This document shows, piece by piece, positions 28,135 to 59,872 of a DNA stretch of 64,000 bases. Positions within the stretch are counted from its first letter, which is position 1. Every line of letters begins with the position of its first letter. The translations under genes were made by a program, and so were the position numbers. Where the stretch lies: NCBI GenBank assembly GCA_937873495.1, contig CALMXZ010000013.1, positions 1-64,000 on the forward strand, given 5' to 3'. This DNA comes from an uncultured Trueperaceae bacterium (GTDB lineage Bacteria > Deinococcota > Deinococci > Deinococcales > Trueperaceae). The notes below the pieces were generated by a model. That model ran no database searches. It was not told where the DNA came from and was given only the letters and a program-made list of their open reading frames with translations.

Positions 28135-28219
28135 GAGTAGCGTGAACTGTAACACCCAACACCTGGCTGCTGTCGAGCGGGTCGGGGCCGTCGGTAGTCG
28201 GCGGGACCCGGACCTAGTT

Positions 28220-28229
28220 TTGTCGACAA
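28220..28229. promoter_or_regulatory. GTCGAC-type operator (perfect TTGTCGACAA)
   Basis: A 10-bp perfect palindrome inside TTTTGTCGACAATCG. The same 15 bases recur at 46674-46688. The TnGT-N2-ACnA shape is what FCD-type GntR proteins usually bind. Confidence 0.6.
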
Positions 28230-28255
28230 TCGCCCCGTCGGGACCGCAGGGCTCC

Positions 28256-28284
28256 TTGACAGGCGCGCAGCGATTGTCTACAGT
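28256..28284 (+). promoter_or_regulatory. promoter of the 28384 importer operon with overlapping operator
   Basis: TTGACA (28256-28261), a 17-bp spacer and TACAGT (28279-28284). A half-conserved site TTGTCTACAG (28274-28283) overlaps the -10 box. This gives a leader of about 90 nt to the ATG at 28384, which has AGGAGG 7-8 bp upstream. Confidence 0.65.
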
Positions 28285-28329
28285 ACGTCCCAATCGCAGT
28301 CGAGGAACAGGGGAGCCGGTGCGTAGTTG

Positions 28330-28353
28330 CAGTCGACAATCGACCGTCGACAA
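28330..28353. promoter_or_regulatory. tandem GTCGACAATCG operators
   Basis: Two copies of GTCGACAATCG, starting at 28332 and 28346 (14 bp apart), lie in the leader downstream of the promoter. Placement suggests a roadblock or cooperative repression. Confidence 0.6.
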
Positions 28354-28383
28354 TCGTTAGGTGCCTAGACCAGGAGGAACAAG

Positions 28384-29937
28384 ATGAAGCGAGGCAATGA
28401 ACCCGTGAACAGGCTGGCGAGGCGGCTGTGGCTCGCGCTGCTGCTCGCCCTGCCGTTGCAGGCGCTGCTGGTCCATGCGCAGCAGGCCCCCGTCGAGGTA
28501 GTGATCGGGCTCACGGACGACCCGCCGTCCGGCGACCCCCACAAGTCGCGTGGCGCCAACGGCGGCCACCTGCTCTACAACGTCTACGAAGGCCTGGTCG
28601 CCCTCAACGGCGAGATGACGGAAGTGCTCCCCAAGCTCGCCACCTCGTGGGAGCAGGTCGACGAGTTCAGCTGGCGCTTCCACCTGCGCGAGGGCGTCAC
28701 GTTCCATAACGGCGAGCCGTTCAACGCCGAGGCCGTCAAGTACTCCATCGCCCGCCTGCTCGACCCGAACGCCGTGCGCCTCAACTCGGGCTACAAGCAC
28801 ATCAGCGAGGTGGAGATCGTCGACGACCATACGGTCGTGATCCACCTGTCCACCACCGATCCGATGTTCATCGAGCGGCTGCCCGACGTCCACATGGTGC
28901 CGCCCGTCTACACCGCCAGCGTCTCCGAGGAGGAGTTCGGGCGCAACCCGGTCGGCACGGGCCCCTACCGCTTCGTCGACTGGACCGTCGGCGACCACCT
29001 GACCCTCGAGGCCTACGACGGCTACTGGGGCACCAAGCCGGTGGTCGACAGGCTCGTGTTCCGCCCCATCCCGGAAGTCTCGACCCGCCTGGCGGAGCTG
29101 CAGACCGGCCGCGTCGACTTCATCACCGGCGTCAACTACGACACGGTCAGCGTCATAGAGAACGACCCCTCCCTCCGCGTCGAGTCGAACAGCGGGCGCC
29201 GCACCGTGTTCGTCCACGTCGACCAGCTCGGGGGCTTCGCGCCGCTCCAGGATGCCCGCGTCAGGCAGGCCGTCAGCCACGCCATCGACCGCCAGCTCCT
29301 CATCGACGGCGTCCTGAACGGTTACGGCACTCCGCTCGCCACGTTCTTCCGTCCGGACATGTTCGGCTTCGACGCCGACCTGCCCGCGCAGGCGTACGAC
29401 CCCGACCTCTCGCGCTCGCTGCTGGCCGAGGCCGGCTACCCCGACGGGTTCACCGTTCGCATGTCCACCAGCCCGACCACGGTGACGAAGGGCGACGAGA
29501 TCGCGCAAGCCATCGCGTCCATGCTCGGCGAGGTCGGCATCAAGGTCGACCTGCAGGTCGTCTCCGATCAGACGCAGCGCGACACGTACCTGGGGAACCC
29601 GGACAAGACCTCTGGCGCCGTCCCGCCGCTCTTCATGTGGAACTGGGGTTCCCAGCTCCCCGACGCCTCCAGCCCGCTGACCGGACTGCTGCGCACCGGT
29701 GGCGTCACCTCGTACATGTCGAACCCCGAGCTCGACGCGCTCATCGACCGCTTCGTGGCCGAGATGAACCCGGAGACGCGCCGCGCGCAGGCCATCGAGC
29801 TGCAGCAGTTCCTCTACACGGACCTGCCCGTGATCCCCCTCTACCTCCAGCTCGACCTCTACGGCGTCAACGAACGCATCGGGTGGACCGCCCGCAAGGA
29901 CGAATACATCCTCGGCGTCGACATGAGCCTGAGGTAA
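28384..29937 (+). CDS. family 5 ABC substrate-binding protein
   Basis: 517 residues. Signal peptide about 1-33 (ALLVHAQ), no lipobox. The start IGLTDDPPSGDPHKSRGANG marks a subgroup shared with the proteins at 47667 and 61163. Further blocks: LREGVTFHNGEPFNAEAVKYS, NPVGTGPYRFVDW, VRQAVSHAIDRQLLIDGVLN and LLAEAGYPDGFTVRM. It is first in a five-gene unit (binding protein, DppB, DppC, AtzG-like, amidase) under the GTCGAC-site promoter. The operon pairing predicts that an amide-containing compound is delivered to the amidase. Confidence 0.93.
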   Translation: MKRGNEPVNRLARRLWLALLLALPLQALLVHAQQAPVEVVIGLTDDPPSGDPHKSRGANGGHLLYNVYEGLVALNGEMTEVLPKLATSWEQVDEFSWRFHLREGVTFHNGEPFNAEAVKYSIARLLDPNAVRLNSGYKHISEVEIVDDHTVVIHLSTTDPMFIERLPDVHMVPPVYTASVSEEEFGRNPVGTGPYRFVDWTVGDHLTLEAYDGYWGTKPVVDRLVFRPIPEVSTRLAELQTGRVDFITGVNYDTVSVIENDPSLRVESNSGRRTVFVHVDQLGGFAPLQDARVRQAVSHAIDRQLLIDGVLNGYGTPLATFFRPDMFGFDADLPAQAYDPDLSRSLLAEAGYPDGFTVRMSTSPTTVTKGDEIAQAIASMLGEVGIKVDLQVVSDQTQRDTYLGNPDKTSGAVPPLFMWNWGSQLPDASSPLTGLLRTGGVTSYMSNPELDALIDRFVAEMNPETRRAQAIELQQFLYTDLPVIPLYLQLDLYGVNERIGWTARKDEYILGVDMSLR

Positions 29938-38139: not shown

Positions 38140-38184
38140 ACTATATGGGCAGAGATTGCTCATTGTCAACGGTCGGCTGTCGAC
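38140..38184 (-). promoter_or_regulatory. promoter of the 37992 operon with adjacent GTCGAC site
   Basis: On the minus strand: TTGACA (38169-38164), an 18-bp spacer and TATAGT (38145-38140). A GTCGAC core in CTGTCGACCA (38179-38184) lies immediately upstream of the -35 box, a position that could serve activation or control the divergent TPR gene. Confidence 0.6.
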
Positions 38185-43634: not shown

Positions 43635-44393
43635 CTAGTCGAGCTTGAGCAGCTTGCGGGCGGTGCCGCCGAGGATCTTGGCGCGCGACTCCTCGCTCAC
43701 GTCCATCTCGCGGATGGGGTCGAGGTTGTACTTGAAGCGCCACGTCCGGTTCGGGTTGGCGTCGGAGCCGTAGAGGATCTTGTCGTCGGAGCGCATCCAG
43801 TCGAGCATCTCTGGCCCGATGCGCGGGATGAGCCTGGCGACCTGCGCGAAGGTCAGCGTGGTGTCCAGGTAGACGTTCGGGTGCTTGCCGGCGATGTAGG
43901 GGTCCGGGCCGAACGGGTTGCCGTGCGCGATGATCATCGTGGTGTTCGGATGCCGGATGGCGAGTTCGTCGATCAGTAAGGGGTCACCGAACTTGATCAC
44001 GCCTTCCCGCAGGAACACGCCGCCCGTGTGGAACAGGACGGGCAGGTCGAGCTCGGCGCACTTCTCCATGAGCGGAGACACGCGGGGGTCGTCGATGGAG
44101 AAGTGCTGGATGGGCGGGTGGAGCTTCAGGCCGCGGAAGCCGTGGTTCCTGACCAGCTCCTCGAAGTCCTTGACGGCGTTCTTGCGGGTGGGGGTGACGG
44201 AGGCGAAGCCCGCGAGCCTGCTGGGGTGCTTCTCGACCAGCGACGCGATCAGGCGGTTGGACTCCTCCAGCTCCTCCTGGTCCTGACCGAGCGCCAAGAC
44301 GACGGAGAGCTGGATGCCCTCCTTGTCCATCTCGGCGAGGAAGTGATCGACGTCCGTCCTCGGTTGGATGTGGGTGTGAAAGTCGATTACCAC
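43635..44393 (-). CDS. ACMSD-type amidohydrolase (amidohydrolase_2)
   Basis: 252 residues from the GTG at 44393 (GGAGGG upstream). A TIM-barrel metal hydrolase/decarboxylase: His6-x-His8 (DFHTHIQ), LKLHPPIQHF, VLFHTGG, IIAHGNPFG and LYGSDANP. A close paralog lies at 46835. Relatives decarboxylate or hydrolyse small carboxylates. First gene of a three-gene unit; two GTCGAC cores lie about 105 bp upstream. Confidence 0.85.
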   Translation of the reverse strand: MVIDFHTHIQPRTDVDHFLAEMDKEGIQLSVVLALGQDQEELEESNRLIASLVEKHPSRLAGFASVTPTRKNAVKDFEELVRNHGFRGLKLHPPIQHFSIDDPRVSPLMEKCAELDLPVLFHTGGVFLREGVIKFGDPLLIDELAIRHPNTTMIIAHGNPFGPDPYIAGKHPNVYLDTTLTFAQVARLIPRIGPEMLDWMRSDDKILYGSDANPNRTWRFKYNLDPIREMDVSEESRAKILGGTARKLLKLD

Positions 44394-44786
44394 GGAACCC
44401 TCCGACCTTTCTGGCCCGGCCGGCGGTCGTGGCGGACCAGTTCTGGGTGTGGCGGCGCTCGGTTGTGCGCATGCCCGGGGCGTCCCCGGACAATATGTCG
44501 ACTGTCGACAGCCGCCTGGCGCAGAACATAGCACAGGCGGGCGCGCGCCATGTGGACGGCGCGCATGGGCGGCGGATAACGGGTGCCACCTCCACGCGCG
44601 GGCCCCGCGCACCCCTTCCGTCGAGACGCGGTGCGCGGACCGCGCCACCTCCACGCGCAGGGGCCGTGACCGGTCGTGCAGTACATCGCGCCGACCGGGC
44701 GCGAGGCCGGTAGACTTGGGGGCATCGACCTAGAGGGTTGGTGTTGGTGGCGGTAGGCGAGACGGGGCGGGAGGGCCCCACGATCG
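44394..44786. other. 393-bp intergenic region between divergent amidohydrolase and GntR genes
   Basis: It holds the GTCGAC operator pair (44497-44509), a possible minus-strand -10 box TATGTT (44530-44525) with no good -35, and a 15-bp direct repeat GCCACCTCCACGCGC at 44585-44599 and 44644-44658. No convincing coding sequence. Confidence 0.5.
44497..44509. promoter_or_regulatory. paired GTCGAC operator
   Basis: TGTCGAC-T-GTCGACA (44496-44510) is a 15-bp palindrome built from two GTCGAC cores 7 bp apart. It lies roughly 8-20 bp downstream of the transcription start expected from TATGTT. Confidence 0.6.
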
Positions 44787-45524
44787 ATGACGTTGCATAA
44801 CGGTAAGCAGGCGACCAAGAGGAAGAACCTCACGGGGCACATCGTGGCGGTGCTTACCGAGCGCATCATCCAGGGCGCCTACCCGCCCGACGCTCCCCTG
44901 CGCGAGATCGAGATAGCTGACGACCTCGGAGTCAGTAGGTCGCCGCTGCGCGAGGCCTTGCGCGTGCTGTCGGAACAAGGGCTGGTCGACATCGCCGCCG
45001 GCAAGGGCGCCAGGGTAGCCCCCCTGACGGTCAGGGCCGCGGGGGAGTTCTACGACGTCCGCGCCGTGATCGAGTCCTACTGCACGCAGCTGTCCGTTGA
45101 GGTGTGTTCCGACGCCCAGTTGGCCCAGCTCATGGGGGCGTTCGCGAGCCTCGAGAGAGCCGCCTCGGAAGGGGACGTGGCGGGCTTCCAGGACCAGAAC
45201 ACCGACTTCCACCTGCTGCTCTACTCCTTCTGCCAGAACAAGACGCTCGTCTCCGTCGTCGACACGGTCTGGAAGCGCGGCGCGCGGTACTCGCGGCTGC
45301 TGCGCCTCGACAGCGGCAGGTCAAAGGCGATCCTCGAGCGCAAGCGCGAACTGGTCAGGCTGATCTGGAGCCGGGACGCCCAGGGCGCAGCCGAGTGCGT
45401 GCGCGGCATCATCCTCTCAGGTAAGGAGGACGTGCTGGCCGCGATCGCGGCCGGTGACCCGTTCACGTACTGGGAGAAGGCCAAGGCGCGGCAGCGGTTC
45501 GCAGAGGTGGACTCGGTCAAGTAG
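44787..45524 (+). CDS. FCD-type GntR transcriptional regulator
   Basis: 245 residues, paralog of 40364. Winged HTH: IVAVLTERIIQGAYPPDAPL, ADDLGVSRSPLREALRVLSE, GLVDIAAGKGARVAPL. The FCD domain has FYDVRAVIESY and DFHLLLYSF. It sits between two operons that both carry GTCGAC sites (44393 minus, and the 46659/46835 pair), which makes it the nearest candidate repressor. Confidence 0.9.
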   Translation: MTLHNGKQATKRKNLTGHIVAVLTERIIQGAYPPDAPLREIEIADDLGVSRSPLREALRVLSEQGLVDIAAGKGARVAPLTVRAAGEFYDVRAVIESYCTQLSVEVCSDAQLAQLMGAFASLERAASEGDVAGFQDQNTDFHLLLYSFCQNKTLVSVVDTVWKRGARYSRLLRLDSGRSKAILERKRELVRLIWSRDAQGAAECVRGIILSGKEDVLAAIAAGDPFTYWEKAKARQRFAEVDSVK

Positions 45525-45657: not shown

Positions 45658-46659
45658 TCAGGCCAGCTGCTTCAGGGGTACGGCCGACTGACCGTCGCCG
45701 ATGATGTACGCGTAGTCGCCCGGCTGGACGGCCGACATCAGGGCGCGCATCTGGAAGATGATCGCGTCGTCCCACGGCGCCAGGATGCGCCCGGTCTCCT
45801 CGAGCGTGTAAGGGTCGAAGATGGTGCCTAGCACGGTGTCCTTCGCCAACGGCACGTTGAGTTCCGCCAGGCCGACGTTCGGCACGAAGATGCCGCCGGT
45901 CGGTATGCGGATGAGGGTGCGCCTGGTCATGACCACCTGGGAGTCCGGCAGGACGATCTCTCCCGCGACCATGCCGTAGTGCACCATGATGTTGCGGACA
46001 CCCCGCAACGCCTCCTGCATGTACTCGCCGTTCTGCATGAGCAGGCTGCCGCCTATCTCTGGCACGATGCACGGCACGCCCAGCTGGGCCGCGTACGCGG
46101 TGAGGGAGCCTTCGAAGAACGGACCGCGGTAGGCGACCTTCAGGCCGAAGAGCCGCGACAGTTCGTACGTCTGCTTGGCCCACTCGTCCTGCGACTCCTT
46201 GATGTAGATGTAGTGGATCAGGCGCTCGACCGAGCCGCCGTCGATGTGGATCACGGCAGTGCACCGCGGTACGAGGTCGGCCAGGGCGGCCGCCAGGCGC
46301 TCGGAGATCCACCCGTCCTTCTTGCCGGGGAACACGCGGTTCATGTTGAGCATGTCGAACGGCGTGTTCCTCGTCTCCTGCTCGAGTGAGAGCGGGTTGC
46401 CGACCGGGACGAGCAGCAAGGTTCCCGACAGCGACTTCGGATCGGTGGCCGCGAGGAGATCCTTGATCACCTTCGTGGCGTAGATCTCCTCGCCGTGGAT
46501 GGCGGCGACGACCATCAGGGTCTTGCCGGGCCGCGAGCCGTGCACGACGTGCACGGGGATGGCCAGGTCGTGGCCGCTCGACAGCCGGCCGACCTGCAGG
46601 TTGGCCATCCCGGTGGTGCCCGGGGCTACGCTCACGCCTTCGAGTTTGAACGGGTCCAT
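45658..46659 (-). CDS. M14-family AstE/AspA-like zinc hydrolase
   Basis: 333 residues from the ATG at 46659 (GAGGAGG upstream); the frame continuing to 46842 crosses the operator region. Zinc ligands His55/Glu58 (AAIHGEEIY) and His in AVIHIDGGS; NMNRVFPG supplies the substrate Asn/Arg. Close to the protein at 60029 (both HGEE and HIDGG). It is transcribed alone, divergent from the amidohydrolase-importer operon at 46835, with matched promoters and operators on both sides. Confidence 0.87.
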   Translation of the reverse strand: MDPFKLEGVSVAPGTTGMANLQVGRLSSGHDLAIPVHVVHGSRPGKTLMVVAAIHGEEIYATKVIKDLLAATDPKSLSGTLLLVPVGNPLSLEQETRNTPFDMLNMNRVFPGKKDGWISERLAAALADLVPRCTAVIHIDGGSVERLIHYIYIKESQDEWAKQTYELSRLFGLKVAYRGPFFEGSLTAYAAQLGVPCIVPEIGGSLLMQNGEYMQEALRGVRNIMVHYGMVAGEIVLPDSQVVMTRRTLIRIPTGGIFVPNVGLAELNVPLAKDTVLGTIFDPYTLEETGRILAPWDDAIIFQMRALMSAVQPGDYAYIIGDGQSAVPLKQLA

Positions 46660-46675
46660 CTCTGCCTCCTCGTTT

Positions 46676-46727
46676 TTGTCGACAATCGCTCGTTCCGGAG
46701 TGTAAGTCGAGCCCGCGACCCTGTCAA
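46676..46727 (-). promoter_or_regulatory. promoter and operator of the 46659 M14 gene
   Basis: Minus strand: TTGACA (46727-46722), a 17-bp spacer and TACACT (46704-46699). The perfect operator TTGTCGACAA (46685-46676) lies at about +7 to +16, where a bound protein would block start of transcription. Confidence 0.7.
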
Positions 46728-46762
46728 TCGCCGCCTGAATAAGCGCGTTGCAGACGGAGAAC

Positions 46763-46808
46763 TTGACAGCAGTAGAAGCCACAATGCTATCTTCGTGACA
46801 GTCGACAA
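46763..46808 (+). promoter_or_regulatory. promoter and operator of the 46835 operon
   Basis: TTGACA (46763-46768) and extended -10 TGCTATCTT (46785-46793, spacer 19). The operator CAGTCGACAA (46799-46808) lies at the expected start site. It mirrors the minus-strand promoter 36 bp away. Confidence 0.65.
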
Positions 46809-46834
46809 TCCCCCAAACCCAAGAGGAGGTCTTT

Positions 46835-47587
46835 GTGATCATTGACTTTCACACCCACGTGCAACCTGGTACCGACCTACCTGCCTTCCTGGCGGAGATG
46901 GACGCCCAGGGGATCGACATCTCGGTCATCCAGTCGTTGGGGGCCGACCAGGACACGCTCGACAAGGCCAACCCCCACATCGAGAAGGTGGTGGCTCAGC
47001 ACCCGGACAGGTTGATCGGCTTCGCGTCCGTCATGCCGACGCACAAGAACGCCGTGAAGGACCTCGAAGCGCTCATCGCCTCCGGCTTCAAGGGCCTGAA
47101 GCTGCACCCGCCCATCCAGCACTTCTCGGTTGACGACCCCCGCCTTGCCCCGCTCATGGACAAGTGCGCGGAACTGCGCATACCCGTGCTCTTCCACACG
47201 GGCGGCGTCTTCTTGAGGACCGGGGTCATCCGCTTCGGCGACTCGCTGCACTTCGACGAGCTCGCCATCCGGCACCCGGACACCACGATCATCATGGCCC
47301 ACGGCCAGCCGTTCTCCCACGACCCCTACATCGTCGGCAAGCACCCCAACGTGTACATGGACACCTCCGTGCGCTTCACGAACATCGCACGCTTGATCCC
47401 CAACATCGGCCCCGAGCTCCTGAGCTGGATCAGGTCGGACGACAAGGTCATCTACGGCTCCGACGCGAGCCCGACGAAGCTCTGGCGGTTCAAGCACAAC
47501 CTCGACCCGATCAAGGAGATGGCCTTCACGGAGGAGGCGCGCACGAAGATCCTGAGCGGCACGGCCAAACGACTGCTGGGGCTGTGA
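46835..47587 (+). CDS. ACMSD-type amidohydrolase (amidohydrolase_2)
   Basis: 250 residues from a GTG with AGGAGG upstream. Metal motifs: His6-x-His8 (DFHTHVQ), LKLHPPIQHFSVDDPR, VLFHTGGVFL, IMAHGQPFS and IYGSDASP. It is highly similar along its length to the protein at 43635, an obvious duplication. First gene of an operon that continues with a binding protein, DppB and DppC; it should act on what that importer brings in. Confidence 0.87.
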   Translation: MIIDFHTHVQPGTDLPAFLAEMDAQGIDISVIQSLGADQDTLDKANPHIEKVVAQHPDRLIGFASVMPTHKNAVKDLEALIASGFKGLKLHPPIQHFSVDDPRLAPLMDKCAELRIPVLFHTGGVFLRTGVIRFGDSLHFDELAIRHPDTTIIMAHGQPFSHDPYIVGKHPNVYMDTSVRFTNIARLIPNIGPELLSWIRSDDKVIYGSDASPTKLWRFKHNLDPIKEMAFTEEARTKILSGTAKRLLGL

Positions 47588-47666: not shown

Positions 47667-49211
47667 GTGAACGAAGTGCGCAAGATACGTTCGGTGCTAC
47701 TGCTGTTTCTCCCCGCGGCTCTCATGCTCGGCGGCCTCGCGGTCGCGCAGGGGCAGCGGGAGGTCGTGGTCGGCCTCGCGGGCGATCCCCCCGGCGGCGA
47801 CCCGCACAAGGCCCGCGGGGCCCAGGGCGGACACATCCTCTTCAACCTGCATGCCGGGCTCGTCGAGCTGAGCGGCGACATGGAGAGGGTGTCTCCGATG
47901 CTCGCCTCGTCCTGGGAGCAACTCGACGCGCTCACCTGGCGTTTCCAGCTGCGAGAGGGCCTCGCCTTCCACAACGGCGAGCCGTTCAACGCCGCCGCCG
48001 TCGAGTACTCGTTCAAGCGCCTCATGGACCCCGCCGCGGTCCGCCTGAACTCCGACTTCCCCAACTTCGAGGCGATCGAGGCGGTGGGCGACTACGTCGT
48101 CGAGGTCCGGCTCAAGGCTCCTGTCCCGAGCTTCATGGCGGTGCTGTCCGGCTTCCTCGTCGTGCCACCGCAGTACACCTCCTCCGTCTCCGAGGAGCAG
48201 TACGCGCTCAACCCCGTGGGCATCGGCCCATACAAGTTCGTCAGCTGGCAGCCGGGGCAGCCGTTCGTGATGGAGGCGTTCGACGGCTACTGGGCAGGTA
48301 GGCCGGCCCTGGACCGCCTGGTGTTCCGTCCGATCCCGGAAGCGTCAACGCGCTTGGCCGAGCTCCTCGCCGGCACGGTCGACATCATCGCCGCGCCGAA
48401 CTACGACGACCTGAAGCAGATAGATGGCAACGCCGCCACCCGCGTGGAAGCCGCGCCGGGCAGGCGCACCGTCTTCCTGAACATGGACCACATCGCCGGC
48501 CTCGAGCCGTTGCAGGACGCCAGGGTTCGTCAAGCTATCGCCCATGCCGTCGACAGGCAGCTCCTGATCGACACGCTGCTCGGCGGCTACGGCGAGCCGC
48601 TCGCCACCCTGTGGCGCGCCGACATGTTCGGCTACGACCCAACGCTCGAACCCTACGCCTACGATCCCGACGAGGCGATGCGCTTGCTGAGCGAAGCGGG
48701 TTACCCGGACGGCTTCGCCGTGCGGATGCTCACCAGCGAGATCGTCATCAACAAGGGCCTCGAGGTCGCGGAGGCGGTGGCGTCGATGCTGACGGACGTC
48801 GGCATCGTCACCGAGGTCGTCGTGGTGCCCGACCAGGTCAGGCGCAACATGTACATCGCCAACGTCAACCGCGACCACCTCCAGCCCGGCGAGGTCGAGC
48901 CCATGTGGTTGGCGAACTGGGGCGCCGGCATCCCGGACGCCACGAGCGCCCTGCTGGGGCTGCTGCACACCTCGGGCACGTCCTCGTTCACGAGGATCCC
49001 CGAGCTGGACGCCAGGATCGACGCCTTCGCGTCCGAGGGCGACGAGGCGGTCCGCGTTGGCATGGCGCACGACCTCCAGGACTACCTGTACACCGAGATG
49101 CTGCAGGTCCCGCTCTTCCTCCAATCGAACCTGTACGGCGTCAACGAACGCCTCGACTGGTCCGCGCGGAAGGACGAGTACGTGCTGGGGATGGACATCT
49201 CCATCCGCTAG
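47667..49211 (+). CDS. family 5 ABC substrate-binding protein
   Basis: 514 residues from a GTG (47667) with AAGGAAGG upstream. Signal peptide about 1-28 (GGLAVAQ), no lipobox. Subgroup mark GLAGDPPGGDPHKARGAQGG is shared with 28384 and 61163. Further: LREGLAFHNGEPFNAAAVEYS, NPVGIGPYKFVSW, VRQAIAHAVDRQLLIDTLLG. It delivers substrate to the DppB/DppC pair downstream. Confidence 0.93.
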   Translation: MNEVRKIRSVLLLFLPAALMLGGLAVAQGQREVVVGLAGDPPGGDPHKARGAQGGHILFNLHAGLVELSGDMERVSPMLASSWEQLDALTWRFQLREGLAFHNGEPFNAAAVEYSFKRLMDPAAVRLNSDFPNFEAIEAVGDYVVEVRLKAPVPSFMAVLSGFLVVPPQYTSSVSEEQYALNPVGIGPYKFVSWQPGQPFVMEAFDGYWAGRPALDRLVFRPIPEASTRLAELLAGTVDIIAAPNYDDLKQIDGNAATRVEAAPGRRTVFLNMDHIAGLEPLQDARVRQAIAHAVDRQLLIDTLLGGYGEPLATLWRADMFGYDPTLEPYAYDPDEAMRLLSEAGYPDGFAVRMLTSEIVINKGLEVAEAVASMLTDVGIVTEVVVVPDQVRRNMYIANVNRDHLQPGEVEPMWLANWGAGIPDATSALLGLLHTSGTSSFTRIPELDARIDAFASEGDEAVRVGMAHDLQDYLYTEMLQVPLFLQSNLYGVNERLDWSARKDEYVLGMDISIR

Positions 49212-59843: not shown

Positions 59844-59872
59844 ATTATCAGACCCACAGATTGTCTGACAAT
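59844..59872 (-). promoter_or_regulatory. promoter and operator of the FCD regulator
   Basis: Minus strand: TTGTCA (59871-59866), a 16-bp spacer and GATAAT (59849-59844). The palindrome ATTGTCTGACAAT (59860-59872) covers the -35 box, so binding would shut the promoter. Confidence 0.65.

Follow-up and report, generated by a model that had tools for sequence, protein, structure and literature searches.

For operators of the FadR subfamily of GntR-type regulators, a survey of binding sites (PMC4494728) gives the consensus NyGTM-N0-1-KACNy; it further reports, for GntR sites, extra boxes lying 7-12 nt from the operator centre and a correlation between the residue at position 39 of the helix-turn-helix and the central operator bases, with Thr tending to A/T. 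In Agrobacterium fabrum, a member of the VanR group of FCD-GntR proteins, Atu1419, forms a tetramer that brings together, by looping, two 10-bp palindromes spaced 190 bp from each other in one divergent region (PMC7797058). While control of this kind is ordinary in bacteria, in the lineage considered here it has not been mapped before; a literature search for the 10-mer described below, and for AstE or importer regulons under GntR control, returned nothing relevant.

The window (the whole stretch of DNA that was analysed, 64,000 nucleotides from an uncultured Trueperaceae bacterium) contains at 46660-46834 an intergenic region, region A, flanked on one side by a minus-strand gene for an AstE/AspA-type (M14-like) deacylase/desuccinylase family protein (45658..46659; Pfam PF24827, the closest NCBIfam model being DoeB with a score far under its cut-off). 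On the other side lies a plus-strand gene for an Amidohydrolase_2 family protein (46835..47587; PF04909), which heads an operon with an SBP_bac_5 solute-binding protein (47667..49211, plus strand; PF00496) and DppB/C-type permeases. A first-pass annotation of this DNA had described two promoters here, and its letters and spacings proved correct on direct reading. The minus-strand promoter of the AstE/M14-like gene (46699..46727) consists of TTGACA at 46727-46722, a 17-nt spacer and TACACT at 46704-46699, and was also returned by a promoter scanner; the plus-strand promoter of the amidohydrolase-importer operon (46763..46793) consists of TTGACA at 46763-46768, a 19-nt spacer that falls outside the scanner's range of 16-18, and an extended -10 element, TGC-TATCTT, with the hexamer at 46788-46793.

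Each of these promoters is followed by a candidate operator. The first (A1, TTGTCGACAA, 46676..46685) is a perfect 10-bp palindrome that runs on as TCGC on the plus strand; read in the direction of the minus-side gene (46685-46676), it begins 13 nt past the -10 element, or about +8 to +17 relative to the predicted start site. The second (A2, CAGTCGACAA, 46799..46808) is an imperfect palindrome, symmetric at three of five half-positions, that begins 5 nt past the plus-side -10 element, or about -1 to +9 on the same reckoning. The earlier placement of both operators near the start of transcription is thereby borne out, and so is the arrangement of back-to-back promoters each with a downstream site; the description of that arrangement as a 'mirror image' holds only loosely, given the unequal distances from the -10 elements (13 versus 5 nt), the long 19-nt spacer and the imperfection of A2. 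The centres of A1 and A2 are separated by 123 bp and enclose both promoters. A sister genome (G004) retains the two sites along with the two promoters (including the minus-side -35 and -10 elements), with A1 found at L034 6287 and the counterpart of A2 reading AAGTCGACAA.

A second intergenic region, region B (28135-28383), lies between a minus-strand DppC-like gene and a plus-strand SBP_bac_5 gene (28384..29937; Pfam), which is the first gene of a second importer operon and is preceded by a plus-strand promoter, TTGACA-17-TACAGT (28256..28284). Four sites are found here: B1 (TTGTCGACAA, 28220..28229), which in G004 and in a further genome, G003, is a perfect 16-bp palindrome, CGATTGTCGACAATCG; B2 (TTGTCTACAG, 28274..28283), which overlaps the -10 element and is conserved in G004; B3 (CAGTCGACAA, 28330..28339), after which comes a TCGAC half-box; and B4 (CCGTCGACAA, 28344..28353), 14 bp from B3. 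The centre-to-centre distance from B1 to B4 is 124 bp. Because G004 retains all four sites despite a different gene on the opposite side, it is most likely the SBP operon that the region-B sites serve. Searched as a pattern, GTCGACAATCG occurs four times in the genome to which the window belongs (G000), each time within the window and exclusively in these two intergenic regions, A and 28135-28383. Repressors typically bind at +1 to +17, across a -10 box, or in the spacer that separates the promoter hexamers; the sites described here, which lie either just past the start of transcription (+1 to +17) or across a -10 box, fit repression rather than activation.

A related class of sites is found at two more positions. 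The double operator in region C (GTCGACTGTCGAC, within ATGTCGACTGTCGACAG; 44497..44509), in which CTGTCGACAG at 44502 overlaps another GTCGAC, is located 13 nt downstream of a -10-like element, TGCTATGTT, belonging to an amidohydrolase-M20-AstE operon (amidohydrolase at 43635-44396, minus strand) that is divergent from the regulator gene P1 described below. The double operator in region E (GTCGGCTGTCGAC, 38172..38184) lies between the minus-strand gene SBP_36490, whose promoter reads TTGACA-18-TATAGT (38169-38140, minus strand), and a plus-strand operon encoding TPR, RidA and a second regulator, P2. The double-site pattern GTCGRCTGTCGAC occurs exactly twice in each of three genomes (G000, G004 and G005), each time in regions C and E (38172 and 44497 in the window), and both sites fall in blocks that are conserved when the three genomes are aligned. 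More generally, the interval 20000-63700 is unusually dense in related operons for amide/peptide catabolism, with at least five SBP_bac_5/DppB/DppC importers, at least four AstE/AspA-like genes, two amidohydrolase_2 genes, two M19 genes, one M20 gene and several regulators.

The first-pass annotation had further pointed to two nearby FCD-type GntR genes (at 44787 and 40364), and both identifications hold. P1 (44787..45524, plus strand) and P2 (40364..41089, plus strand) each match PF00392 (GntR) and PF07729 (FCD) above the Pfam cut-offs, which places them in the FCD/FadR subfamily, and they are 48% identical to one another. An AlphaFold model of P1 (pLDDT 84.7) matches the VanR-group FCD structures McbR, AlkR and Atu1419. 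At the columns that hold the metal ligands, for which we take the reference set to be Asp/His/His/His (from TM0439 and Atu1419), P1 carries N138, H142, K186 and I208 and P2 likewise carries N/H/K/I, such that three of the four ligands appear to have been lost; on account of these residues, both proteins lie outside the metal-binding FCD subset while remaining FCD members, and a metal-dependent effector site in either is unlikely. When GTDB contigs were scanned using the alignment of P1 and P2, distant FCD proteins alone were recovered. Two observations count against these proteins as readers of the sites. The P1 gene has no TTGTCGACAA directly in front of it, the nearest region, C, being about 280-290 bp away on its upstream side; and in the draft genome G003, where the 16-bp palindrome of region B lies at a contig end (L080, contig C109, 53-66), neither P1 nor P2 was found, for which an assembly gap may be the cause.

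The simplest reading of how two paralogues and two site classes correspond, and the one that the sequences make most likely, is that P1 reads the TTGTCGACAATCG sites of regions A and B, and that P2 reads the double sites of regions C and E and is autoregulated. A less likely alternative is that one regulator serves all of the sites, with P2 (or P1 and P2 interchangeably) binding both classes and P1 being a redundant paralogue. The recognition helices of the two proteins are identical (SRSPLREA), the GTCGAC core and a common grammar, GTCGAC-N-RTCGAC, are found in both classes (GTCGACAATCGAC at 28332, GTCGACTGTCGAC in region C), and P2 is the paralogue found in all three genomes, all of which speaks for such a reading. 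It is opposed by the distribution of the proteins and sites: G004 possesses both P1 and P2 together with both site classes, whereas G005, which possesses P2 and both double sites, lacks P1, the region-A genes and any copy of GTCGACAATCG genome-wide. In addition, the letters that distinguish the classes (AAT versus CTG) stay separate in the genomes carrying the sites, and the wings of the paralogues differ (AGKGAR versus PGKGAT). The division of labour between P1 and P2 is nonetheless provisional, because it draws upon three genomes only and because the target genes vanish together with P1.

The first-pass proposal that the site shape fits FCD-type GntR proteins agrees with the published consensus, in that TTGTCGACAA, read as GTC.GAC, matches NyGTM-N0-1-KACNy with N0 (A2 being an imperfect palindrome), and with the occurrence of the palindrome upstream of FCD-GntR genes in other genera (PMC4494728 for the consensus). 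A search for GTCGACAATCG across 61 related genomes, with the surroundings annotated, gave 42 sites in genomes of the family other than G000 and G004; nine of these precede the matched domain of an FCD-GntR gene by 82-176 bp, versus about 0.07 expected by chance on our own estimate (~12 FCD genes x ~400 bp per 3 Mb), and another six are close to where an SBP_bac_5 gene starts. Gene models in those genomes come from a simple gene caller, and intergenic status there is approximate. The operators in other genomes often extend as TTGTCGACAATCGAC, with an added half-box 6-10 nt from the centre that resembles the published extra boxes (PMC4494728). These observations bear upon a second, improbable alternative, in which the sites serve an activator or some other regulator and P1 and P2 are incidental neighbours. 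An RpiR protein (57067) and another FCD-GntR protein (59754) are indeed encoded in the same window, and the position of an operator is not by itself proof of repression. To the contrary, the palindrome follows FCD genes across genera, the operator positions fit repression, and the genes for the 59754 protein and for a relative encoded on contig C4 have an odd-spaced palindrome of their own, TTGTCTGACAA, upstream. RpiR and the 59754 protein were set aside as readers of the sites, the latter with that palindrome in view.

The notion that these are SalI-like GTCGAC sequences which arose by chance in a genome rich in GC, next to promoter matches that are equally fortuitous, draws upon the abundance of looser matches (44 in the window at two mismatches) and is effectively refuted by conservation in G004 and by the family-wide position upstream of FCD genes, exact TTGTCGACAA occurring twice in the window versus 0.01 in dinucleotide shuffles and GTCGACAATCG four times versus 0.06 expected. 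The genome-wide motif search suggested in the first-pass annotation found exact TTGTCGACAA twice in the entire 3.43-Mb genome, both copies inside the window (one in region A and one in region B), and left the FCD-GntR idea standing. Near-matches of the form GTCGACAATC[C/A/T] elsewhere in that genome added no regulon members: two lie within gene models, and one lies at a gene start (contig C3, 68504), for which no membership is claimed.

The GTCGAC palindromes very probably serve as operators for a GntR repressor of the FCD type (FadR subfamily), with P1 and P2 governing a regulon of four intergenic regions that would switch several operons for amide/peptide uptake and hydrolysis. The local regulon envisaged by the first-pass annotation is supported, but was drawn too narrowly: region B with its four sites (28220-28353) and the double sites at 38172 and 44497 were missed, as were the grounds for telling P1 from P2. 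In the absence of inducer, dimers occupying the operators near the two start sites, one per operator, would block RNA polymerase in both directions, and the outer operators of region A may be bridged across their 123 bp by a tetramer, forming a loop; looping is suggested by analogy with the distant homologue Atu1419 and by the 123- and 124-bp spacings. A compound that the amidohydrolase/AstE/importer pathway consumes or produces would bind the protein and release it from the DNA; judging by the AstE-like, M20, amidohydrolase and SBP_bac_5 genes, this effector may be an acylated amino acid, peptide or amide. The same type of operator would control the SBP_28384 importer operon through four sites, while the variant double site GTCGRCTGTCGAC would control the amidohydrolase-M20-AstE, SBP_36490 and TPR-RidA-GntR operons, with P1 acting on the first site class and its paralogue P2 on the second, including its own operon. 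An observation confined to 175 bp is in this manner extended to a prediction on the scale of the genome, in which two regulators act through two classes of operator in four intergenic regions, and which further provides a functional handle on amidohydrolase, AstE and peptide-type importer operons, in that operons under one regulator should have a common inducer.

The wider family allows the operator centre to be compared with the recognition helix. All family FCD hits of the protein search down to E = 3.2e-15 were taken, regardless of motif. A CG-centred palindrome of the TTGTCGACAA type lies upstream in eight of eight proteins with the helix SRAP (Ala), versus one of 22 with the helix SRTP (Thr), where a GTATAC-centred (TA) palindrome is found in eight of the 22 (Fisher p = 1.5e-6 for the contrast, a value that ignores relatedness; on the tree, the CG label needs about three changes, which leaves the counts partly dependent on one another). 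The single exception is an SRTP protein, G019:C16, with TTGTCGACAA upstream. Numbered as in PMC4494728, the residue that varies is position 39 of the helix-turn-helix, which corresponds to Thr46 in FadR of E. coli; in both P1 and P2 it is Ser. Among the 15 FCD proteins of G000, 13 helices were read (all except those of L155 and L156), and SR[S/A]P occurs in P1 and P2 only. SRTP FCD genes in other genera (L110, L112, L128 and L123) have a perfect TTGTATACAA upstream, sometimes paired, and an SRTP FCD gene of G000 (L157, contig C10 near 79344) has GTGTATACAT just upstream, which fits the TA-centred class. Separately, a perfect palindrome, ATTGTCTGACAAT, lies at 59860-59872 upstream of the third FCD-GntR gene of the window (59754, helix GRSSVREA), and the same TTGTCTGACAA precedes a second GRSSVREA FCD gene of this genome (L153, contig C4). 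The site of these two proteins, TTGTC-T-GACAA, is the P1/P2 half-site made one base wider; both carry Ser at position 39, and C.G flanks the centre of their odd-spaced palindrome.

A one-residue code can be tentatively proposed for many FCD-GntR proteins of this family, in which Ala or Ser at position 39 would specify C.G beside the centre (TTGTCGACAA) and Thr would specify A.T (TTGTATACAA), and in which P1 and P2 would have divided an ancestral GTCGAC operator into single-palindrome and overlapping double-site classes that insulate two neighbouring catabolic regulons; the combined proposal is plausible, but falls somewhat short of being probable. Such a rule links one protein residue to the DNA letters that are read, and is simple enough to be checked by one point mutation. 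The correlation at position 39 adds a specific prediction, from Ala/Ser to C.G, to the published work on GntR specificity (PMC4494728).

Compared with the sites compiled in that survey (PMC4494728), those described here share the NyGTM-N0-KACNy shape, the occurrence of double sites in divergons and the extra half-boxes 7-12 nt from the centre; as in the FadR subfamily generally, they lie at the promoters of the regulator and/or its cognate operons and are conserved among relatives. They differ in lineage and in target genes, and in a C.G centre that is tied to Ala/Ser at position 39. The FadR-subfamily sites of the LldR/DgoR type, with a 3-nt distance between GT and AC (PMC4494728), have the same GT...AC half-sites, as seen at 59861-59871 (TTGTCTGACAA), but their centre is odd, and in this genome that form goes with the GRSSVREA proteins rather than with P1 and P2. 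Atu1419 (PMC7797058) differs in a TA centre (ATGTATACAT) where the present sites have CG, in an operator spacing of 190 rather than 123 bp, and in the binding of zinc, three of the four ligand columns being occupied in P1 and P2 by Asn, Lys and Ile. It is like P1 and P2 in its GntR and FCD domains and matching fold, in an even-centred 10-bp palindrome with GT and AC at a 2-nt distance, in the placement of two operators in a divergent intergenic region, and, as predicted for P1 and P2, in the control of a local catabolic cluster.
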